From Lachnoclostridium sp. An169 (GTDB lineage Bacteria; Bacillota; Clostridia; Lachnospirales; Lachnospiraceae), in NCBI RefSeq assembly GCF_002160525.1, contig NZ_NFKT01000003.1:186001-250000 (forward strand): DNA of 64,000 bases, written 5' to 3'. Under the pieces are notes generated by a model. That model was not told the DNA's origin and did no database searches. It saw only the letters and a list, made by a program, of their open reading frames with translations. A program made the translations under genes and the position numbers. Positions 16,685-47,230 of the stretch are shown in pieces (position 1 is the stretch's first letter; every line of letters begins with the position of its first letter).

Positions 16685-16764
16685 AAACAATGTTTCTTTG
16701 CCGTACATTGCGAAACGTGTTTGCATAAACAGTGTTTTTATGCCGTACACTGTAAAACGTTTTT
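16685..16764. repeat. two tandem 38-bp near-palindromic repeats, possible recombinase sites
   Basis: Copies at 16685-16722 and 16727-16764 agree at 31 of 38 positions with a 42-base period. Each has a TGCCGTACA core flanked by an inverted repeat (AATGT/ACATT in the first, CAGTGT/ACACTG in the second). The second copy changes both arms so pairing is kept, which argues for selection on the palindrome. Confidence 0.7.
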
Positions 16765-16838
16765 ACGCTTATATTATATGTATCAATAGAGAAAAAATCA
16801 ATGAAAAATTTTGTGAAAATTGAGACGGGGAGAAGCTG

Positions 16839-28633: not shown

Positions 28634-29959
28634 AACCTGCAGAGCGTCCCGGATATTACTTTTCAGACATTAGAAGGGAAAACGGTTGTCGTTGCGACGG
28701 TTGCTCCGGGAGTAAACCGGCCGTATTTTTTGAAGTCCAAAGGAAAAGAAAAAGGGACTTATGTTCGTGTTGGAGGTACGTCAAGACTGGCGGATCCAGA
28801 AAAAATCAGAGAGTTGGAGTATGAGGGGGAACGTGTTTCCTGGGACGAACAGATATGCATTAACTATCCGGTTACAGAAGCTGCAGTTAAAAAATTGTGC
28901 CGGGACATCAACCGCTACCGGAAAGAAATGCAGGAGATCCGGGAAAATGCAGGAACGAGACCAAGAGTAACACGGACTCAGCTCATCAACTGGAATGTGT
29001 TAAAGAAAAGAGAGAACGGCTATTTGGCATCGAATGCGTTCGCGTTGCTGACAGGGAAATATTTTCATTATTCAAAGACTCAGTGTGCCGTCTTTGCAGG
29101 GACAGAGCGCGGCGAGTTTATCGATAAGCAGGAATACGACGGACCATTGTATGAGCAGATTGAAAATGCTTATTCGTTTGTGTTACGGAATATCCGTCGA
29201 AGCGCGAGGGTTGAAGGACTGGTGCGGAAAGAAAAATATGAACTTCCGCCTGCTGCGATTCGTGAAATGATCATAAACGCCCAATGCCACCGTAATTTTC
29301 TTGATTCATCCTGCGTGCAGGTAGCCTTGTACGATGACCGTCTGGAGGTTACGTCGCCAGGAGGATTATGTTTCGGACTGACTCTTGAGGAAGCGATGAG
29401 CGGACGCTCCAAACAGAGGAACCGGGTTATAGCCGAGGTGTTTAACCAGATTGGGCTGATCGAAGCATGGGGAACAGGATTGAGAAATATTCGCAGAGCG
29501 GCAGCGGCTTATCATTTGCCGGAACCGGAATTTATTGAGATGCCTGAGACATTTCGCGTGAATCTATTCCGAAAAGGGATAGCTGAAAAAGTTGACTATA
29601 GTGCAGGGATAATCGCAGAAGATTCAGAAGAGATTCGGAGGAGCTTCGGAGAAAATTCAGAGGAATTTCGGGGAAATTTCGGAGGAACTTCGGAGGAACT
29701 TCGGAGGAACTTCGGAGAAGCTTCGGAAGAATTTCGAGAAAATTTCAGAGAAAAGCAGGAAGAATTGAACGACACACAGAAGAAAATCATCCAGCTTTTA
29801 TCCACAGACGGAAGCCGGACTGCGGCAGAACTTTCAGAAAAGATCGGTATAACGCGCAGAAGTATTGAGATGAATATCCGAAATCTGAAAGATCGTGGAA
29901 TATTGGTCAGACATGGTCCTGCAAAAGGCGGATACTGGGAGGTGAAAAAGCAAAAATAA
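28634..29959 (+). pseudogene. AlbA_2-domain ATP-binding regulator, N-terminally truncated
   Basis: The frame is open from 28634, just after in-frame stops, and starts in the middle of an AlbA_2 (Schlafen-like) domain: VPDITFQTLEGKTVVVATV, then VNRPYFLKSKGKEKGTYVRV. The domain's first hundred or so residues are missing. The GHKL-like C-terminal part follows (NAQCHRNFLDSSCVQVALYDDRLEV, then GLIEAWGTGLRNIRRA), then four 11-residue repeats and a winged helix (TAAELSEKIGITRRSIEMNI). A TTG at 28730 could start a shorter protein, but no clear ribosome binding site was seen. These proteins are often regulators near defence or toxin genes. Confidence 0.75.
29618..29749. repeat. four 33-bp in-frame repeats in the AlbA_2 gene
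   Basis: Four units encode an 11-residue motif of the form (E)xSEE(F)R(x)NFG. The third unit is further reduced to an 11-12-base sub-repeat (GGAACTTCGGA). Eleven-residue periodicity suits a right-handed coiled coil or an elongated linker before the winged helix. Confidence 0.85.
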
Positions 29960-30006
29960 AATTTGTCATTCCCTGCTGCGTGGCTAATACTATATCGGAG
30001 GAGATT

Positions 30007-31017
30007 ATGAATCAGGAATTTTATGGAGAAATCAAAAAGATTTTGATAAATTCAAGAAATAAGGTTTATCAAACTGCTAATTTTGCAATGGTCGAGGCAT
30101 ACTGGAACATAGGAAAAGCAATTATAGAAGAGCAGGGAGGCAAGGAAAAGGCGGAATATGGAACGGGATTGTTACAGGAATTGTCAAAACAGATGACAAA
30201 AGATTTTGGTAGAGGATTTACAGTTGCAAATCTGAAAAATATGCGGCAGTTCTATCTGAAGTTTCCAAATGGCTACACACTGCGTAGCGAATTGAGCTGG
30301 TCGCATTACCGTCTATTAATGCGAGTCGAGGACAAAACTGCCAGAGAATTCTATATGCAGGAAGCAGTGAAATCACAGTGGAGTACAAGGCAGCTTGAGA
30401 GGCAGATTAATTCATTTTTTTATGAACGGTTATTGTCGAGCAAAAATAAGGATAAAGTAAGACAAGAGATTCAACACTTGGAACCGGCTAAAAAGCCGGA
30501 AGATATTATTCGCGATCCATATGTTTTGGAATTTCTCGGATTAAGCCCCAATGAAGATTTTTACGAGAGTGATCTGGAGCAGGCATTGATTACACATTTG
30601 CAAAAATTCCTTCTGGAGCTAGGCAGAGGTTTTTCGTTTGTCGCCAGACAGAAAAGAATTACTTTTGATGGAAGACATTTTAGGATTGATCTCGTTTTTT
30701 ACAACTATATTTTGAAATGCTTTGTTCTGATTGATTTGAAAGTTGGCGACTTGACTCATCAGGATCTTGGACAAATGCAGATGTACGTGCACTATTATGA
30801 GCGGGAACTTATGAATGAAGGGGATAATCCGCCAATTGGTATCGTGCTATGTGCAGATAAAAGTGATTCTGTTGTTAAGTATACTCTCCCGGAAAATGAA
30901 ACGCAGATATTTGCTTCAAAGTACAAATTATATTTACCAAGCGAAGAGGAATTGGTGAAAGAATTAAATCAGGAATATCAGGTATTGGAGTCAGAAATGA
31001 AAAGTGAAACTCTGTAA
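30007..31017 (+). CDS. YhcG/DUF1016-family PDDEXK nuclease
   Basis: 336 residues from ATG 30007, preceded by GGAGGAG. The N-terminal DUF1016 helical domain contains VEAYWNIGKAIIEEQ, LLQELSKQMTKDFGRGF and LSWSHYRLLMRV. The C-terminal half is the PDDEXK nuclease fold, with ESDLEQALITHLQKFLLELG, FRIDLVFYNYILKCFVLIDLKVG (active D and D-x-K) and ADKSDSVVKY. The proteins are predicted nucleases found with restriction or other mobile defence genes. It follows the truncated AlbA_2 gene by 47 bases. It is intact and AT-rich. Confidence 0.88.
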   Translation: MNQEFYGEIKKILINSRNKVYQTANFAMVEAYWNIGKAIIEEQGGKEKAEYGTGLLQELSKQMTKDFGRGFTVANLKNMRQFYLKFPNGYTLRSELSWSHYRLLMRVEDKTAREFYMQEAVKSQWSTRQLERQINSFFYERLLSSKNKDKVRQEIQHLEPAKKPEDIIRDPYVLEFLGLSPNEDFYESDLEQALITHLQKFLLELGRGFSFVARQKRITFDGRHFRIDLVFYNYILKCFVLIDLKVGDLTHQDLGQMQMYVHYYERELMNEGDNPPIGIVLCADKSDSVVKYTLPENETQIFASKYKLYLPSEEELVKELNQEYQVLESEMKSETL

Positions 31018-34991: not shown

Positions 34992-37505
34992 TCACAGATA
35001 TCTCCCGGTACAGCTTGCAGAGTTCTTTCGGAGCTCATCCGGTGTCCCGGCTGCCACGATCCTGCCGCCCTCTGCACCGCCGCCGGGCCCCATATCGATG
35101 ATGTAGTCGGCGTTTCGGATCACATCCAGGTCGTGTTCGATGACAATGACAGTGGCGCCGTTTTCGATCAGTGTCTGGAACACGCCGATGAGAGTCTGGA
35201 CATCGAGGGGATGCAGACCGATGGTGGGCTCATCAAAGATAAAGATGGAGTCGGCCTGCGTCTTACCCATCTCGCTGGCAAGTTTCAGACGCTGTGCTTC
35301 GCCGCCGGAGAGGCTGGGAGTCTCTTCGCCGAGGGTGAGATAGCCGAGTCCCAGATCTTTGAGCACCTGAAGTCTCTGGCGGACGAGTTTTAAGTTCTCG
35401 CAGGCTTTCAGGGCGGTGTTGATATCCATTGCCATCAGCTCCGGCAGGGAGTAACCTGCAGCGGGGACGGCATCACGGGCTATATTCCCCGCCTTCTTCT
35501 TTTTATCCACATACCGGATCCGGTCCGCTGCCTTGTCATACCGGGAGCCCCGGCACTGGGGACAGGTGATCTTTACATCCGGGAGAAACTGTACGTCCAG
35601 GCTGATAATGCCGGTTCCGTCGCAGACCGGACAGCGCAGTTTGCCCGTGTTGTAGGAGAAGTCCCCGGCTTTGTATCCAAGCTCTTTTGCATCTGCGGTC
35701 CGGGCGAAGATCTTCCGCAGTTCATCGTGTACATTGGCATATGTGGCCACCGTGGAGCGGACGTTGATACCGATGGGAGAAGCGTCGATCAGCTTGACCT
35801 GTCCGATTCCGCATGGGTCAGCCTCATGGACATGTTCCGGTAGTTTCGTCCCGTGAATGGCGGCTTCCAGTCCGGGAATCAGGCTTTCCAGGATGAGTGT
35901 GGTCTTGCCGGAACCGGATACGCCGGTCACAGCGGTGAGCCGGCCCTTTGGAATATCGGCTTTCAGAGGCTGCACGGTGTGGATGGCTCCGGTGGCGAGA
36001 TGAATTCTCCCCAGGGAGAACATCTCTCCCGCATCTGCCCGGGGACGCATGAGAGTATGCTGCTGTCCGGAGAGGAAAGGCCCGATTTTCGACACAGGAT
36101 TTCCGGCGATGTCAGCGGTTGTCCCCTCTGCGATCACATAACCTCCGTCGGAACCCGCATCCGGTCCCATCTCGATGATCCAGTCGGATTCCGAGAGAAT
36201 CTGGGTATCGTGGTCCACCAGAATTACGGAGTTCCCGTCAGCGATCAGGTCGTGCATCACTCCGGTCAGCCCCACGATGTTGGAAGGGTGAAGTCCGATG
36301 GAGGGCTCGTCCAGCACGTAGAGCACACCGGTAGTGCGGTTGCGGACTGCCCGGGCGAGCTGCATCCTCTGGCGTTCCCCGGTGGAGAGGGTAGAGGAGG
36401 CCCGGTCCAGTGTCAGATACCCGAGCCCCAGATCCATCAGGCGTTTTGCTACAGTCTGGAAGGAATCGCAGATGCTCTTCGCCATGGGGCGCATCTCTTC
36501 CGGGAGAGATGCCGGGATACCGGATACCCACCGGATGAGGTCAGAGAGTGTCATCTGGCAGGCCTGTGCCAGGGATATGCCGCGAAGCTTTGGAGCGCGG
36601 GCAGCTTCTGACAGCCGGGAACCGCCGCAGTCCGGGCAGGCCTCCTGCTTCAGAAATTTCTCCACACGTTTCATGCCCTTTTCATCTTTGACTTTTGATA
36701 GTGCGTTTTCGACTGTGTACACAGCATTAAAGTAGGTAAAATCAAGTTCACCTGCCTGGTTGGTTTTTGTGGATTTGTAGAAAATGTGCTTTTTTTCGGC
36801 CGGACCGTTATAGACGATATCTTTTTCTTTATCAGTCAGTTCACGGAAGGGCACGTCTGTGCGTACGCCCATGGCACGGCACACGTCCGTCATCAGAGAC
36901 CACATCAGAGAATTCCAGGGAGCGACGGCGCCCTCGTCGATGGTCAGGGAATCGTCCGGTACGAGAGTGGAGCGGTCTACCGTGCGCACCGTTCCTGTGC
37001 CGTCGCAGGTGCGGCAGGCACCCTGGCTGTTAAAGGCAAGTTCCTCGGCGGAAGGCGCGTAAAAGTGAGTTCCGCATACGGGGCAGACCAGTTCCCCGCC
37101 GGCTGCAACCAGGAGAGTGGGCTCCAGATAATGGCCGTTGGGACACCGGTGGCTGGCGAGCCGGGAGAACATCAGACGCAGGCTGTTCAGCAGTTCGGTT
37201 CCGGTGCCGAAGGTGCTGCGGATTCCCGGGATACCCGGACGCTGATGGAGCGCAAGGGCGGCAGGAACATAGAGCACTTCATCTACATCGGCCCTGGCGG
37301 CCTGGGTCATCCTGCGCCGGGTGTAGGTGGACAGGGCATCCAGATAGCGGCGGGAGCCCTCTGCATAGAGGACGCCCAGAGCCAGGGAGGATTTTCCTGA
37401 ACCGGAAACCCCGGCGATGCCGACGATTTCTCCAAGGGGAATATCAACATTGATGTTTTTCAGATTGTGTACCCGCGCACCGCGGATCAATATTTTATCT
37501 GCCAT
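34992..37505 (-). CDS. short UvrA-type ABC ATPase (UvrA2-like)
   Basis: 837 residues, with AAAGGAG six bases before its ATG. Two UvrA-type ATPase units are present: Walker [12 protein letters not shown], signature [13 protein letters not shown] and [14 protein letters not shown] in the first; [27 protein letters not shown] and [13 protein letters not shown] in the second. Zinc-finger cysteines ([39 protein letters not shown]) are kept. It is about 100 residues shorter than canonical UvrA; the missing part corresponds to the N-terminal region that binds UvrB. Such UvrA2 proteins are linked to DNA-binding drug tolerance rather than standard excision repair. It is a single gene convergent to the radical SAM gene. 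Confidence 0.88.
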
Positions 37506-41647: not shown

Positions 41648-42601
41648 TTATCCGTTTTCTGTCCTGTCCGCTGCAGTCTGATACTGCTCCAGCAGCGTGT
41701 TCCAGTCACTGTATTTCTTTTCCCCGCGATGGTCGGGAAGAGAGTAATTTTCCATGAGATAGGAACCGAGGACAGCAGTGACTTTTCTGGCTCCGCTCAG
41801 ATTCAGATGATCACCCTTATCCATAGTATCCTTTTCCCAGTCGATCCCGGCCCGGTCATCAAGATTCAGATCAAAATAGGGAATGTTGTACCGTCTTGCA
41901 TAGGCCTCGAGAGCATTGTGCTTCGGATAGCTGTAGTTGACCGGAGAAGTGGTGCTCACAAGCAGGAGAGAGGCGTTGTTTTTCGCGCACAGTTTCCGGA
42001 TCATGTCCATATACAGATATGTGTGCGCGGGCATTTTTTTTACGCTGTCCGTGGGCTGCATATATTTTTTTGCCCCGGTATAGGGTTCGATGTCACTGTG
42101 GACAGGGAATCCTTTAAAGCTGTCGGCGTCCGTTTTCGGGCCGTCAAACACACTTTTCCAGATATTGTGGTAACGAAGGGCCGGGAAGTAAAAACGGAGC
42201 GGTTCACCTACAGTGAGAAGGACGTTTTCCGCCAGGCCCGGATCCCGGAACATGAGGTTGGTCTCAAGGATCACCAGCTTCGGAGACTGCGTCTGCAGTG
42301 CTGTTTTCAGCATGTAGTAAGTTTCCTGGATCCGCTGGGAGCTCTGACCGCAGTTGTAAGATGCGATTCCATGCTGCGCCCAGAGATCCATGGGAGAAAA
42401 TGAAGTATAGCTTTCACTGTCCCCGAGAAAGATCACATCCAGAGAGTCCTTTTTCTCTGCGCTGATCCCTGCGAAGACCCTGCTTCTTCCGCGTACGCAT
42501 CCCCTGCATCCGGCTGTGATCCGGCTGGCGGCAGCAGAGCAGAGTCCGAGCAGAAAGAAGAAAGTCAGAAAGAATAAAATCCCTTTTTTCAGTCGTTTCA
42601 T
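41648..42601 (-). CDS. SGNH hydrolase / DltD-like protein of a dlt-like operon
   Basis: 317 residues from ATG 42601 (GAGGTGA upstream), overlapping no coding sequence but beginning 11 bases after the MBOAT stop. One N-terminal membrane helix (GILFFLTFFFLLGLCSAA) anchors an external SGNH domain: FLGDSESYTSFSP supplies the nucleophile serine and DHLNLSGARKV the Asp/His pair. In dlt and alginate acetylation systems the equivalent protein works with the MBOAT protein in transferring the acyl group to a surface polymer. It is the last gene of the five-gene operon. Confidence 0.8.
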   Translation of the reverse strand: MKRLKKGILFFLTFFFLLGLCSAAASRITAGCRGCVRGRSRVFAGISAEKKDSLDVIFLGDSESYTSFSPMDLWAQHGIASYNCGQSSQRIQETYYMLKTALQTQSPKLVILETNLMFRDPGLAENVLLTVGEPLRFYFPALRYHNIWKSVFDGPKTDADSFKGFPVHSDIEPYTGAKKYMQPTDSVKKMPAHTYLYMDMIRKLCAKNNASLLLVSTTSPVNYSYPKHNALEAYARRYNIPYFDLNLDDRAGIDWEKDTMDKGDHLNLSGARKVTAVLGSYLMENYSLPDHRGEKKYSDWNTLLEQYQTAADRTENG

Positions 42602-42611
42602 TGTGTTCACC

Positions 42612-44222
42612 TCAAAATCCTGCATAGATTAGGTCGATCGCCTGGTATCCGTCTCCATATGCTGCGAAGAGCAGGAGAGCAAAGAGAAGCGCATAGCATA
42701 CACCCCATCGCAGAGGAAGGCTGCTTCCGGCGATCCGAGTCGAGATACTGCCGCTGTGTTCCCTGATATGTCCGACTGCTGCGACTATGATGCATCCGGC
42801 GATGACGGCGGCAAAATCGGCCGGGCTCATCCCAAGGTTGAGAAGGGTGCCGTCCCAGAGATTTCCGATATCAAAATCACGGAAGATACTGCGGAACATG
42901 TGGATCCCGGCTTTCAGGCCGTCAGCACGGAAGAAGAGTTCTCCGGTGAAGATGATGAGCCATGTTTTCAGGATCCGGAAAGACCTCAGCCATATGCTGT
43001 CAGCAGAGATGTGACAGGCGGAGAGAACGCGGTCGCGGACCGGCTCGATGGCAGTTCCCAGGATGATCAGGGTAAAATAATACATTCCGTAAAAGATATA
43101 ACTCCACCGGTCTCCGTGCCAGAGTCCGTTGCACAGCCAGACCGGAAAGAGGGCCAGGGCTGAGGTGACCAGGCGGGTAAGATATTTCCCCGCATGTTTC
43201 CTGCCGTACTGGTTCCAGCGCTTGACCGTGCCGGAGACAGATACGGGGTAAAAAATGTAGGACTTAAACCATACGCCGAGGGTGATATGCCATCTCCGCC
43301 AGAACTCTGCCGCACTCTGGGAGCAGAAGGGCTGCCGGAAATTTTCGGGCAGGCGGATGCCGAAGAGACGTCCGCTTCCGATAACGATATCGATAAATCC
43401 GGAAAATTCCATGTAGAGCTGTATCGTGTAGGCCACCGCGGAGACGGCAACGACAACTCCGGAGTAATCCCGGTAATCATCAAAGACCTGGGATACGAGG
43501 AGTGCCAGACGGTCGGCGATGACCAGCTTTTTGAACAGTCCCCAGAAAATGCGTATATATCCGGCAGTGAAATCCGTCCGTTCCGGTGTTTTCCCTGCAT
43601 AAAGCATCTCCGCCGTATCGGAGTGACGGCAGATAGGTCCTTCGATGATCTGGGGGAAAAACATAAGGAACAGGGCAGTCTTTGCCAGAGAAGGTTCCGC
43701 CTTGATCCTGCCCCAGTAAACGTCAGCCATATATCCGATGGCCTGCAGGGTATAAAACGAGATGCCCAGAGGAAGGAGTATGCGGATTTCGGAAAGAGAG
43801 GAAGAAAGCCCCGCTCCGTTCAGGATCTCCGAGAGCGTACGGATAAGGAAATTGTAATATTTCAGCCCTGCAAGGATGGAGAGGAGCAGCAGGACACCGA
43901 AGGCCAGAACACCTCTGGCCCGCGTACGGTATCTGCTGCGGATCTCTTTTTCCCGAGACTTCCCGGCGCTGTCTGCGGATTCCCGTATCTCGCGCTGTTC
44001 TTCGGACTGCAGCCAGGCAAGCCAGATCCCGATATAGTGCGTTATGAGGACAGCACCGGCCAGATACAGGATCAGGCTCAGTTCCCGGCAGAGCATCAGA
44101 TAGAAAATGATACTGAAGCCGAGAAGCGCTTTCCAGCGGTGCTTCTGCGGAGTCAGCCGGTAGAACAAAAGGCACAGAGGAAGAAATATAAGGATATAAA
44201 GTATCAGCTGAAACGTTGTCAT
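42612..44222 (-). CDS. MBOAT-family O-acyltransferase (DltB/AlgI-like)
   Basis: 536 residues with about ten membrane helices. The MBOAT core is complete: FFPQIIEGPICR, YMEFSGFIDIVIGSGRLFGI, FWRRWHITLGVWFKSYIFYPVSVSG and the catalytic histidine in LCNGLWHGDRWSYIFYG. Proteins of this family carry acyl or aminoacyl groups from a cytoplasmic carrier across the membrane to polymers outside. A carrier-protein gene ends three bases upstream and a DltD-like gene follows, the same order as dltC-dltB-dltD logic although permuted. The insertion of charged residues after helix 3 (about 78-100) is unusual. Confidence 0.9.
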   Translation of the reverse strand: MTTFQLILYILIFLPLCLLFYRLTPQKHRWKALLGFSIIFYLMLCRELSLILYLAGAVLITHYIGIWLAWLQSEEQREIRESADSAGKSREKEIRSRYRTRARGVLAFGVLLLLSILAGLKYYNFLIRTLSEILNGAGLSSSLSEIRILLPLGISFYTLQAIGYMADVYWGRIKAEPSLAKTALFLMFFPQIIEGPICRHSDTAEMLYAGKTPERTDFTAGYIRIFWGLFKKLVIADRLALLVSQVFDDYRDYSGVVVAVSAVAYTIQLYMEFSGFIDIVIGSGRLFGIRLPENFRQPFCSQSAAEFWRRWHITLGVWFKSYIFYPVSVSGTVKRWNQYGRKHAGKYLTRLVTSALALFPVWLCNGLWHGDRWSYIFYGMYYFTLIILGTAIEPVRDRVLSACHISADSIWLRSFRILKTWLIIFTGELFFRADGLKAGIHMFRSIFRDFDIGNLWDGTLLNLGMSPADFAAVIAGCIIVAAVGHIREHSGSISTRIAGSSLPLRWGVCYALLFALLLFAAYGDGYQAIDLIYAGF

Positions 44223-44225
44223 AGA

Positions 44226-44456
44226 TCAGTTCTCCTGCTGAAGGCGGGTGACCATCTTCCACATGGCAGCGGCGGAGTTGAAGTTCTCCGGCACCATCTC
44301 GGAGGCTTCGATCGTGATATCAAACGCCTCTTCCAGTTCTGCGACCAGTGTGATCACCCCGAAGGAATCGAGAAGCTGGTCGTCGATCAGTCTTTCCTCA
44401 GATGCGAAGTCAATGCTGTCATCTATCTCATTTAAAATATTCATCAGTTTTTCCAT
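44226..44456 (-). CDS. acyl carrier protein (DltC-like)
   Basis: 76 residues from ATG 44456, with AAAAGGAG upstream. The serine in LLDSFGVITLVAELEE takes the phosphopantetheine arm (usual motif DS-[LF]), and the length and acidic charge fit carrier proteins. The start lies within the end of the PLP decarboxylase gene (29-base overlap), so translation is coupled. It likely holds the amino acid activated by the adenylation enzyme encoded at 45683, and may present it to the decarboxylase and the MBOAT protein. Confidence 0.9.
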   Translation of the reverse strand: MEKLMNILNEIDDSIDFASEERLIDDQLLDSFGVITLVAELEEAFDITIEASEMVPENFNSAAAMWKMVTRLQQEN

Positions 44457-45651
44457 TTTTATCTTCTCCTTTTCTGCACATGTTAAATTGATAAGTGTCG
44501 ATCCTTTCTCTGACCTGGCGCCATCCGCGGACCGAGTCATAGGTGACGGCGAGGGGGAGTGCGTGGCTCAGGAACAGAGACATTCCTTCCATACAGGAAT
44601 AAGCGCCGGTCCTCTCAAATGCGAGGACGCGTCCGGTCTTTACTCCCTGAAGGGAGATGTCATGACAGAGAACATCGTTTACCGTACAGAGAGCACCGCA
44701 GACAGTCCATTTTTTTTCAGGACCGGGGATCCCTTCCGGCAGCAGGCGCACACACGGCTCATACATCCCGCGTATCTGCCCGTCATAGTTCATCTGATGG
44801 TTCCCGCCGTCGACGATACAGTAGTTTGTACTGCCGTTTTGCTTTACATCTGCGATCTCTGTGAGGTAGAATCCGCAGGAGGCGGCCAGAGCACGCCCGA
44901 GTTCAATGGTCACATGTCCTTTCCAGCGCATGTTCTCTATTGCTCCCGCAAGACGTTCAAGCCCTTCATCGGTGTAGGCGGGTGCCTCCTTTCCGCGAAA
45001 GTACGGTACGGCGGTTCCGGGACCGTACTCGAGATGTTCTGCATGGAACTGGTAGTCTTTTTCCAGGCGGAGCAGAAACCCGTCCAGGTAGTTCAGTTCT
45101 CTTTCAAACTGCTCCGGATTTTTTTTCTGGGTGCCGGAAAAATAATGGATCCCCTCGATCTTCAGGTATGGGCTCATATTTCCCACCCGGATCATGTTTT
45201 CGAGGGCATTCTCGCTCACGCCAAACTGGTTTCCGCTTGTGAGTCGGGGATATAGCCTGAGAGAAACGGAATGGGCATCGCTCCATTCGGCAAAATAGTG
45301 GAATTGTTTGGCTGATTCCACGGTATAGGCACTTTTATCCCGGCAGTAATCCAGAATTTCGGGAATATCGGACTTCTTTTTCAGTACGCCCGAGATAAAG
45401 AGCTTCTCCGGAGGGATCCCAAGCTCCCGGCAGATCCTGAATTCCCCCATGGAGCACACTTCGATCCTGTCGGTGAGACCGGCCATAGTTTCCGTCAGGA
45501 AGGGGTTTGCTTTCATGGCATAACAAAGGCCGGTGCCGGATGAGAGCCTTCCGCGGATCCGTTTTGTCTCTGCGGCAAGGATATCCAGATTGAAGATATA
45601 AAGCGGTGTACCATAGCGGGTATATGCGTATTCAAGTTGTTCCGATCTCAT
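44428..45651 (-). CDS. fold-III PLP-dependent decarboxylase (DAP decarboxylase-like)
   Basis: 407 residues. The lysine that binds PLP is in GLCYAMKANPFL, followed by VCSMGEFRICRELG, an IHYFSGTQ segment in place of the usual HVGSG, ELGRALAASCGFYLTEI and, near residue 295, CGALCTVNDVL, where diaminopimelate decarboxylases have the catalytic C-E-S-x-D. The variants resemble decarboxylases that act on carrier-linked substrates (BtrK of butirosin, exosortase-linked decarboxylases). It is not a normal lysA, since it sits between an adenylation enzyme and a carrier protein. A role on a carrier-bound amino acid is inferred. Confidence 0.85.
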   Translation of the reverse strand: MRSEQLEYAYTRYGTPLYIFNLDILAAETKRIRGRLSSGTGLCYAMKANPFLTETMAGLTDRIEVCSMGEFRICRELGIPPEKLFISGVLKKKSDIPEILDYCRDKSAYTVESAKQFHYFAEWSDAHSVSLRLYPRLTSGNQFGVSENALENMIRVGNMSPYLKIEGIHYFSGTQKKNPEQFERELNYLDGFLLRLEKDYQFHAEHLEYGPGTAVPYFRGKEAPAYTDEGLERLAGAIENMRWKGHVTIELGRALAASCGFYLTEIADVKQNGSTNYCIVDGGNHQMNYDGQIRGMYEPCVRLLPEGIPGPEKKWTVCGALCTVNDVLCHDISLQGVKTGRVLAFERTGAYSCMEGMSLFLSHALPLAVTYDSVRGWRQVRERIDTYQFNMCRKGEDKNGKTDEYFK

Positions 45652-45682
45652 GTGTTATCATCTCCTTTCCGAGGGTATGGCA

Positions 45683-47230
45683 TCAGAGGCATGCCTGACG
45701 CTGAAAATAGCTTCGGTCTGTCTTTCCGTTTTTATTGAGCGGCATTACTTCTGTGCGGATGATCCTGGAGGGGACCATATAGAGAGGAAGCTTTTCTTTC
45801 ATACTTTTCCGCACATCCGCAGGTACCGCATCGCCCAGGTAAAATCCAACGATCCGTTTCCTGTCCGGGTCAAATACACAGCAGCTTTTTTCCACATGAT
45901 CGATGCCGTTCAAGGCGCTTTCGATCTCTTCCAGTTCGATCCTGCGTCCCATGTGCTTGATCTGAAAATCTTTCCTTCCCGCAAAGACAAGTTCCCCGTT
46001 TTCGTTATAATATGCCAGATCACCCGTGCGGTAAAAAAGTTCTTCTTTTCCGGAACTGTCTGTCCTTCTGACAAAACTGCGCGCTGTGGCTTCCGGATTC
46101 CGGTAATAGCCGCAGGAGACAGACTCTCCTGCCACACAGATCTCGCCCCGCCGGGCAGGGGATACGATCTCCCGGCCATCCTCGTCAAGGAGAAAGACCT
46201 GGCGTCCGGGGAAAGGCCGTCCTGCCGGGATCTTTTCATTGTCGGAAAATTCCCGTCCTATGGGATAGTAAGTACAGTTGCACGTGATCTCTGTGGGACC
46301 GTAGAGATTTACAAAGGCGGCGTCAGGCAGAGCTTTCTGCCAGATACGGAGCTGTCCGGGCGGCATGGCCTCTCCGCTGAACAGGACCCTTTTCACACAG
46401 ACGGGGATACGGTAGTCCAGGCCTTTCAGGGATGAGATCAGGGTAAGTGCGGAGACGGCCCACGTCAGTGTGGTCACCTGTTTCTCGCAGAGATAGTCGA
46501 TAAGCACCGGCGGAGTGGTGAAGAGCTTCTTCGGGATCAGCACGAGCTGTGCGCCGGTCATGACTGCGGAACAGATGTCTTTTACGGATACGTCGAAATC
46601 AAAGGGAGCCTGATTCCCGAGGCGGTCATCCTCCGTGATGCCGAAGAGTTCCGTAAAATGTCCGATGAACCGAATGGCTGCTTCATGGTTTACAACGACC
46701 GCTTTCGGAGTCCCGGTAGAACCGGAGGTGAAGATCCCGTACAGGAGATCCTGCCCGCTCATACCGGTGCGGATGGAGTCAAGCCGCTCTGTGTCGGTTT
46801 CTTCCTGCATCAGCATCTCCGGAGTGAAGACTTTTGGGGAAATCCCGCCGGTTTCCGGACATGTGAAGTCCGAACTGCCGCTGTCCTCTGTTACGACGAT
46901 GGGCGAATCCAGAGTATCAAGGATCTTGCGGATCCGTTCCGGAGGGTTGTCCGGACTGACCGGAACATAGAAACACCCAGCATAGACAGCTCCAAGCATG
47001 ACTGCCAGAGTCCGTGCGCTCTTTTCCATAAGGACCGGAACGGGAGAACCGGGGCTGACATGGCGGCTTAAGGCGCTCCCGATCTGCCGTGACAGAGAGG
47101 CGAGCCCGTGCCAGGTAAGCCGGCAGGAGCCGTCGTCCACAGCAGTTTTATATCCGCAGCGCTTTTCCGTCCTTTCCAGATGGTCGAGAAGGTTCATTCC
47201 CGGGGCGCTGTTAAGAATCTTTTTCTGCAT
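45683..47230 (-). CDS. amino acid adenylation enzyme (DltA-like)
   Basis: 515 residues with the full set of adenylation motifs: YGIFTSGSTGTPKAVV, FDFDVSVKDI with the aspartate that binds an alpha-amino group, NLYGPTEITC, YRTGDLAYY and the C-terminal lysine in NKNGKTDR. The layout is that of DltA, which activates D-alanine with ATP and loads it on DltC; the actual amino acid here is not known. It starts at ATG 47230 after GAGGTGATG. It is the first gene of the operon, 31 bases before the decarboxylase gene. A pair of direct repeats lies in its promoter region. Confidence 0.9.
   Translation of the reverse strand: MQKKILNSAPGMNLLDHLERTEKRCGYKTAVDDGSCRLTWHGLASLSRQIGSALSRHVSPGSPVPVLMEKSARTLAVMLGAVYAGCFYVPVSPDNPPERIRKILDTLDSPIVVTEDSGSSDFTCPETGGISPKVFTPEMLMQEETDTERLDSIRTGMSGQDLLYGIFTSGSTGTPKAVVVNHEAAIRFIGHFTELFGITEDDRLGNQAPFDFDVSVKDICSAVMTGAQLVLIPKKLFTTPPVLIDYLCEKQVTTLTWAVSALTLISSLKGLDYRIPVCVKRVLFSGEAMPPGQLRIWQKALPDAAFVNLYGPTEITCNCTYYPIGREFSDNEKIPAGRPFPGRQVFLLDEDGREIVSPARRGEICVAGESVSCGYYRNPEATARSFVRRTDSSGKEELFYRTGDLAYYNENGELVFAGRKDFQIKHMGRRIELEEIESALNGIDHVEKSCCVFDPDRKRIVGFYLGDAVPADVRKSMKEKLPLYMVPSRIIRTEVMPLNKNGKTDRSYFQRQACL

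Follow-up and report, generated by a model that had tools for sequence, protein, structure and literature searches.

The locus described here raises the question of why a gene for an amino-acid decarboxylase lies within an operon that otherwise resembles the dlt system. The operon was found in a 64,000-nucleotide stretch of Lachnoclostridium sp. An169 (contig NZ_NFKT01000003.1, positions 186,001 to 250,000), which as a whole we call the window. It encodes an amino-acid adenylation enzyme (A), a fold-III pyridoxal 5'-phosphate (PLP) decarboxylase (DC), a carrier protein (CP), a membrane-bound O-acyltransferase (MBOAT; here MB) and an SGNH-fold protein (DD). A preliminary description had proposed that the loaded amino acid is decarboxylated on the carrier and then placed on a surface polymer. 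Our analysis shows that the dlt-like operon is conserved and that its decarboxylase is linked to a carrier protein. We give a probability of about 0.5 to the reading that an acidic amino acid is decarboxylated while bound to the carrier and is then transferred to a surface polymer by the MBOAT-SGNH pair. The most likely substrate and product are aspartate and beta-alanine.

Layout and conservation of the operon

All five open frames were confirmed on the minus strand, at the positions given in the preliminary description:

45683..47230, minus strand: A, 515 aa, stand-alone amino-acid adenylation enzyme with the code DVKTLSLCNK (GrsA positions 235-517)
46580..46594, minus strand: codons of A residues 213-217, with Asp at GrsA position 235 and Lys at 239, each present in 91/91 A proteins of DC operons
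44428..45651, minus strand: DC, 407 aa, fold-III PLP decarboxylase with BtrK-type motifs (Lys47, Cys322-Thr323-x-x-Asp326, FLSH)
44226..44456, minus strand: CP, 76-aa carrier protein, attachment site Ser31
44428..44456, minus strand: overlap of the DC and CP genes, 29 bases
42612..44222, minus strand: MB, 536 aa, MBOAT acyltransferase, His312 and His369
42615..42632, minus strand: C-terminal LIYAGF of MB, resembling the acyl-shuttle hexapeptide FXYXXF of DltX and PatA
41648..42625, minus strand: DD, 325 aa, SGNH-fold protein, Ser70 and His273

The overlap between the DC and CP genes is exact, with DC ending at 44428 and CP starting at 44456. This start is the ATG of the frame with a ribosome-binding site; a longer open frame (44226-44540) is also listed. 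Because A and DC are separated by 31 bases and CP and MB by 3, and because the DC/CP and MB/DD genes overlap by 29 and 14 bases, the genes from A to DD likely lie on a single transcript. No promoter-like site was found on the minus strand upstream of A, a result that shows little. The flanking genes encode a B12-dependent ribonucleotide reductase and, on the other strand, an inositol-monophosphatase-like protein.

We surveyed 200 genomes of the window's family (Lachnospiraceae) and found a DC relative in 42 of them at E ≤ 1e-20. The match in one of these genomes, G108, is weak (28% identity, 1.2e-35) and may be another protein. When one genome per species was scanned, at least 549 stretches encoded a DC relative. 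The 100 DC loci compared (L037-L136) are the closest relatives and no random sample; they comprise 20 family-survey loci in longer stretches (L037-L056) and the best 80 of those at least 549 stretches, which by title are mostly Lachnospiraceae with some other Clostridia and one Lactimicrobium. The longer stretches are partly on the same contigs as loci of the other set, and some of the 100 loci are cut by contig ends. A adjoined DC in 98 of the 100, CP in 95 and MB in 93. The order A-DC-CP-MB-DD was found at 60 loci, the same order with a split DD at 6 and A-DC-CP-MB at 9; the remaining 25 were permuted or cut. The gene order is kept far beyond the genome of the window, and this conservation rules out a local oddity or an assembly artefact.

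Operons without an adjoining MB include L045, L049, L125 and L179. At L045 and L049, which have no adjoining DD either, the genes that come next encode a ribonucleotide reductase of the anaerobic type and a protein resembling phosphoglycerol transferases, neither of which was shown to be an alternative acyltransferase. Downstream of the DC operon at L039, L040, L041 and L053 lie two genes whose products have about 240 and 440 aa. At L039, the one locus scanned, these are a response regulator and a histidine kinase, and the DC operon may be under signal control at such loci. At L056 (6716-10057) a DC domain shares one frame of 1114 aa with Ig-like/Rib surface domains and a transglutaminase domain, the result of either a gene fusion or an assembly error.

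Across the phylum, a scan of 398 genomes gave 8 DC matches at 1e-45. Four of these, one of them in the window's genome, score 480 to 591 bits and represent this DC, with A adjoining. The other four (181-194 bits) are BtrK-like and have no A of this type in the stretches read, and one of them (L180) adjoins a carrier-like gene. Mapping the spread against the standard dlt system, we found classical DltA at about 475 bits or more in 9/200 family genomes, 6 of them above the curated cut-off; only three DC genomes are among the nine (G082, G090 and G152). In the window's own genome there is no second DltA-like protein above 75 bits. A LysA-like gene separate from DC (E < 1e-75) is present in 39/42 DC genomes, and the three without one (G001, G016 and G128) are 74, 87 and 69% complete.

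The decarboxylase and the adenylation enzyme

DC matches PF02784 and PF00278 above their cut-offs. Its best sequence match in the PDB is BtrK (1.3e-25), followed by LysA of Aquifex (1.4e-22). Against the LysA model TIGR01048 it scores 143.6 bits, below the cut-off of 297.9. That cut-off is reached by any protein in just 18/200 family genomes; the LysA-like protein of the window's genome, at 265.9 bits, falls under it, as is the case in 182/200. We aligned 35 DC proteins with 22 LysA proteins, BtrK and 4 BtrK-like proteins, a set with no VinO or AfcP sequence in it. The active-site motif is Cys-Glu in 22/22 LysA rows and Cys-Thr or Cys-Ser in every DC, BtrK and BtrK-like row. Near the C-terminus, LysA has YN, BtrK and the BtrK-like rows have FLS or FLG, and DC has FL or LL. 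Among 93 DC proteins, Lys47, Cys322 and Asp326 are invariant, the residue after Cys322 is Thr in 89 and Ser in 4, Phe360 is kept in 92 and Leu361 in all 93. A protein of the window's genome with CL in place of CT or CE (L034) belongs to neither group and stands outside the motif counts and the tree.

In a tree built by a quick method with Shimodaira-Hasegawa-like approximate likelihood ratio (SH-aLRT) support only, the 35 DC proteins form one clade (100) and the 22 LysA proteins another (99). A branch with support 99.9 separates the LysA proteins from the DC proteins and five BtrK-like rows, BtrK included. By its sequence, then, DC is of the decarboxylase type, bears BtrK-type motifs and forms a clade of its own. 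The preliminary description would have been undone by a DC acting on free diaminopimelate (DAP) in the manner of LysA; cut-offs, motif and tree make that reading unlikely.

The adenylation enzyme scores 336 bits against the adenylation-domain model TIGR01733 (cut-off 317). Comparing the ten GrsA code positions in the A proteins of DC operons (91 distinct sequences), we found Asp235 and Lys239 in all 91, Val236 in 88, and Ser301, Cys330 and Asn331 in 90 each, with L056 as the outlier. Because the pocket Lys239 is invariant, the substrate probably still bears an acid group when A binds it. A also has three VinN-like features, namely Asp235, a residue bulkier than Ala at 236, and Ser301. Serine codes, too, have V236 and S301.

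Carrier, transfer genes and the wider family

The carrier falls just below the PF00550 cut-off (20.3 against 20.8 bits), in the PDB it matches two D-alanyl carrier proteins best, and Ser31 is kept in 87/87. MB belongs to PF03062, its two PDB sequence matches are both DltB, and His312 and His369 are kept in 84/84. The full-length MBOATs of DC operons have a Tyr fourth from the C-terminal end in 82/83 (the exception is L090), and the C-terminus fits [FLMIV]xYxxF in 72/83 and the strict FxYxxF in 8/83. In the DC-less operons, counted together with the DC operons L246 and L247, 39/45 MBOATs fit the shuttle-like motif, whereas this type of C-terminus is absent from 8/8 classical DltB proteins of the same family. 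Judged by these sequence features, the operon combines a Dlt-type carrier with a PatA-type shuttle.

DD gave no Pfam or NCBIfam match at 0.001. A structure model built on a 46-sequence alignment (predicted local distance difference test score, pLDDT, 95) has an SGNH fold and a long N-terminal helix, which is probably a membrane anchor. In a Foldseek search with this model, GDSL hydrolases made up most of the top matches; PatB came in at rank 30 and DltD at 35. The model thus identifies DD as an SGNH protein and not specifically as DltD, and we infer a DltD/PatB-like role for it. Ser70 is kept in 76/77 and His273 in 77/77.

The acceptor was sought among the neighbours. Genes for sulfatase-fold proteins with a GBS_Bsp-like repeat lie near the operon at only L049 and L055 among the 20 extended loci, where selected neighbours were scanned. 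For the L049 protein, the only one run, the best NCBIfam match is phosphoglycerol transferase I at 172.9 of 572 bits, and it is possible that these genes encode glycerol-phosphate transferases. We found no close copy of this protein in the window's genome, in a search without a positive control. Three sulfatase-fold proteins of that genome were tested and are at most weakly LtaS-like (L253, 39.7 of 970 bits).

To place A among its relatives, we searched the same 200 family genomes with it at E ≤ 1e-75 and obtained 99 places in 82 genomes. Stretches were read for 79 of these; the other 20 all lie in DC genomes, the window's included. The 79, three phylum-scan loci and a second, distant A in L240 gave 83 rows, which we sorted by code. 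Class I (DVK/DIK...) has 31 rows, 21 with DC and 10 without. In 7 of those 10 the genome has no DC at all at E ≤ 1e-20, and one of the 10 (L226) has Gly at 330. Three of the 10 have a formyltransferase beside CP or A (L189:5-850, L197:6925-7803 and L199:7059-7940), which suggests that these operons make N-formylated aminoacyl groups. A candidate formyltransferase in L246 was dropped, since its N- and C-terminal domains are both of the methionyl-tRNA type.

Class II (DAKC...) has 22 rows and shares Lys239 with the A proteins of DC operons. An aspartate-family racemase lies within 1.5 kb in 16 rows and anywhere in the fetched stretch in 18, and one row (L056) has DC. At L222, L227 and 14 further class II loci, a racemase stands beside A with no decarboxylase. 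The two racemases tested (L222 and L231) score above the cut-offs for amino-acid racemase and cysteate racemase, and the racemase operons may decorate a surface polymer with a D-acidic amino acid.

Neither DC nor a racemase accompanies A in classes III, IV and V (8, 4 and 4 rows). In class V, three of the four rows (L242, L243 and L244) are A-CP pairs with no MBOAT nearby. The L242 pair is the one whose surroundings were scanned, and its neighbours are genes for a protein like beta-ketoacyl-acyl carrier protein synthase III (KAS III), a short-chain dehydrogenase and an aminoglycoside-acetyltransferase-like protein; pairs of this type perhaps serve amino-sugar acylation. Of three rows with an IAR code, L246 and L247 have DC and Arg239 and lack Asp235. 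These two DC operons (L246:5347-6480 and L247:7558-8730) have the A code IARGCSQASK, and their substrate likely differs from that of the usual A.

In the A tree, one clade (99) holds the 21 class I rows with DC, the window's A and two DC-less class I rows, with the other eight class I rows outside; 21/22 class II rows form another clade (100). Because operons share class I whether they have DC, a formyltransferase or neither of the two, DC would act after loading, and it looks like an optional step. We read these operons as one frame (A, CP, MB and DD) with exchangeable tailoring enzymes. More tentatively, and with somewhat less confidence than we place in carrier-bound decarboxylation itself, we propose a family of carrier-dependent MBOAT-SGNH systems with the shuttle within the MBOAT. 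In such systems, amino acids chosen by the A code would be tailored before transfer to surface polymers (decarboxylated, N-formylated or supplied by a racemase as D-aspartate or D-cysteate), and classical D-alanylation would be one member among others, a minor one in this bacterial family.

Proposed carrier-bound decarboxylation, its alternatives and its meaning

The mechanism that we favour would proceed as follows. A would adenylate an acidic amino acid and load it onto CP, with aspartate held through its side-chain carboxyl as the favoured case and glutamate next. PLP-dependent decarboxylation on a carrier needs a free alpha-amine and alpha-carboxylate, and the thioester would therefore have to be on another carboxyl, such as that of the side chain. 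DC would strip the alpha-carboxyl from the bound residue to leave an omega-amino acyl thioester, for example beta-alanyl-CP or gamma-aminobutyryl-CP. As in PatA and DltX, MB would take the acyl group from CP and hand it to the Tyr of its own LIYAGF. The Ser of DD would then receive the group and might esterify an extracellular polymer, perhaps one containing glycerol phosphate or sugar.

The chemistry has precedents. VinN, VinO and VinL load 3-methylaspartate and then decarboxylate it on the carrier (PMC11284099). PMC12186527 describes the conversion of aspartate to beta-alanine on a carrier in vitro by AfcQ, AfcP and AfcK, and reports that AfcQ does not use beta-alanine. For BolO, BolN and BolC, carrier-bound decarboxylation is proposed in PMC7756342, and PMC7857480 gives glutamyl-BtrI as the substrate of BtrK. 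By analogy, the chemistry of VinO and AfcP argues for carrier-bound action by DC. All of these systems share with the operon a stand-alone carrier and a fold-III PLP decarboxylase and, on the favoured reading, an acidic amino acid that becomes a beta- or gamma-aminoacyl thioester. They feed polyketide, peptide or aminoglycoside pathways, whereas the partner here is an MBOAT-SGNH pair.

Several observations weigh against this mechanism. The code of A shares six of ten positions with a serine code. VinN-type enzymes, as described in PMC11253843, have a beta13-beta14 loop that is one residue shorter and K330/R331, and the side-chain carboxyl is loaded. A differs from VinN in having no such shortening (its loop aligns with LgrA without a gap) and in having C and N at 330 and 331, and an exact VinN-type A is unsupported by either feature. 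Read normally, the code of A would mean that the alpha-carboxyl is loaded, and DC could not then remove it. The link between Lys or Arg at 239 and tailoring genes is strong as a plain count (40/40 A rows with DC or racemase against 19/43 without; Fisher 1.7e-9), but it follows the tree; five independent pairs could be drawn, the trait differs in 0.7 of them on average, and the result is not significant. At L056, DC occupies the place upstream of a class II A that a racemase takes in the nearest relatives of this A. In the DC tree a branch with support 95 separates DC and L175 from BtrK, three BtrK-like rows and LysA. BtrK is thus intermediate between DC and LysA and is not nested with DC, which weakens the case for carrier-bound decarboxylation, because kinship with BtrK does not secure carrier action for DC. 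In a published tree (PMC7857480), BtrK groups with DAP decarboxylases and with enzymes for amino acids that have modified side chains. Finally, no conserved acceptor-polymer gene was found near the operon among the selection of neighbours scanned.

The order of events could also be reversed: DC would decarboxylate a free diacid of the cytosol, such as aspartate or glutamate, and A would load the beta-alanine or gamma-aminobutyrate (GABA) that results. Such a pathway would ask no unusual regiochemistry of A, fits the operon linkage and agrees with the position of DC apart from the carrier-acting BtrK; in a related pathway IdnL3 decarboxylates free beta-glutamate (PMC11284099). The invariant Lys239, however, would then lack a second carboxylate to bind, the same A code class persists in operons and genomes without DC, and AfcQ, a known case, excludes beta-alanine (PMC12186527). 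We consider this order unlikely, though it deserves serious weight. Rather improbable, in our view, is that DC works as a PLP-dependent racemase or epimerase within the decarboxylase family and provides A with a D-amino acid, the part that Alr plays for DltA. DC and an aspartate-type racemase never stand beside the same A (0/83), and the arrangement at L056 fits the same idea. The case at L056 is, however, isolated and involves an unusual fusion of DC. In the window's DC the C-terminal domain is of the decarboxylase type, and none of 93 DC proteins has lost Cys322 or Asp326. We know of no such racemase in the DC subfamily and made no search for one.

Similarly improbable is that A loads a diamino diacid like meso-DAP by the alpha-carboxyl of its L-centre and that DC removes the distal carboxyl, giving lysyl-CP and a surface lysyl ester. 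Asp235 and the loop of full length do make A look like an enzyme for alpha-amino acids, and LysA and its kin decarboxylate the D-centre of DAP. Yet Val236, Leu/Met299, Ser301 and Leu322 suggest a small side chain, and free lysine would be a simpler source. LysA recognises DAP by the active-site Glu of its CE motif, where DC has Thr or Ser in 93/93. Least probable of all is that the A-DC-CP trio makes a small secreted molecule, with MB and DD acylating that molecule or an unrelated polymer, so that the operon is not a surface charge system. The A-DC-CP trios in the parts of the literature examined do belong to natural-product pathways, and the class V pairs without a nearby MBOAT, with the KAS III-like and dehydrogenase genes at L242, point the same way; against this, MB is kept with DC at 93/100 loci and retains its shuttle Tyr.

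As in the classical Dlt system, an adenylation enzyme, a DltC-like carrier, a DltB-like MBOAT and an SGNH partner are found in one operon. Yet A scores 267.3 bits against the DltA model TIGR01734 (cut-off 559.85), differs in code and is separate in the tree from 4 classical DltA rows. MB scores 142.1 bits against the DltB model TIGR04091 (cut-off 375), and CP, on a 104-aa frame, 36.2 of 68 for NF003464 and 20.1 of 52.35 for TIGR01688. The operon here has the extra decarboxylase, and its MBOAT, at about 530 aa, is about 120 residues longer than DltB and carries the shuttle Tyr at its own C-terminus. In the Dlt system that Tyr is on a separate microprotein, DltX. With PatA and PatB of peptidoglycan O-acetylation the operon shares an MBOAT with a C-terminal shuttle hexapeptide and an SGNH protein, PatB being among the fold matches of DD; it differs in having a dedicated CP. 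A and DC also match an annotated adenosine monophosphate (AMP) ligase and PLP decarboxylase pair associated with exosortase A, but far under the cut-offs (174.8 of 592.35 bits for TIGR03098 and 139.4 of 478.45 for TIGR03099). Genes of these two families sit near exopolysaccharide genes, and no paper on the pair was found in a search of the open-licence literature.

The preliminary description knew of no described system with this combination. For the trio this does not hold, since it is described for Vin and Afc and proposed for Bol. For the trio joined to an MBOAT-SGNH pair it stands, as far as the open-licence literature goes, which leaves most subscription papers outside. We conclude that the linkage of the two is what is new here, the trio itself being known from antibiotic pathways. 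The same description expected extra positive charge without a carboxyl group. This would be no gain over Dlt, whose D-alanyl esters likewise carry a free amine and lack a free carboxyl; the actual gain would be that an acidic amino acid is turned into a cationic acyl group.

Three features elsewhere in the window were recorded. An Rfam match above the gathering score to the Fusobacteriales-1 cis-regulatory RNA lies at 16687-16801 on the minus strand of this clostridial genome, flanked by a gene for a serine recombinase and one with no assigned family. At 28730-31017, at the edge of a low-GC stretch, a protein with a RecG-C-like ATPase domain and a helix-turn-helix adjoins a YhcG-type PDDEXK nuclease protein. 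A short UvrA-like protein of 837 aa is encoded at 34992-37505 (695 of 730 bits against TIGR00630).

If decarboxylation does take place on the carrier, the operon would represent a third MBOAT-SGNH layout, with a carrier protein and the shuttle Tyr in cis, and would allow a test of how donor type and shuttle are linked. It would also provide a series of A codes, for which the operon partners may reveal the substrates. Within the family, the DC gene is several times commoner than classical DltA (42/200 against 9/200 genomes). Carrier-bound editing of amino acids in the style of antibiotic pathways would be wired into envelope modification in common gut bacteria, and would predict unrecorded surface groups with a bearing on charge, on resistance to host defence peptides and on immune recognition of commensals.

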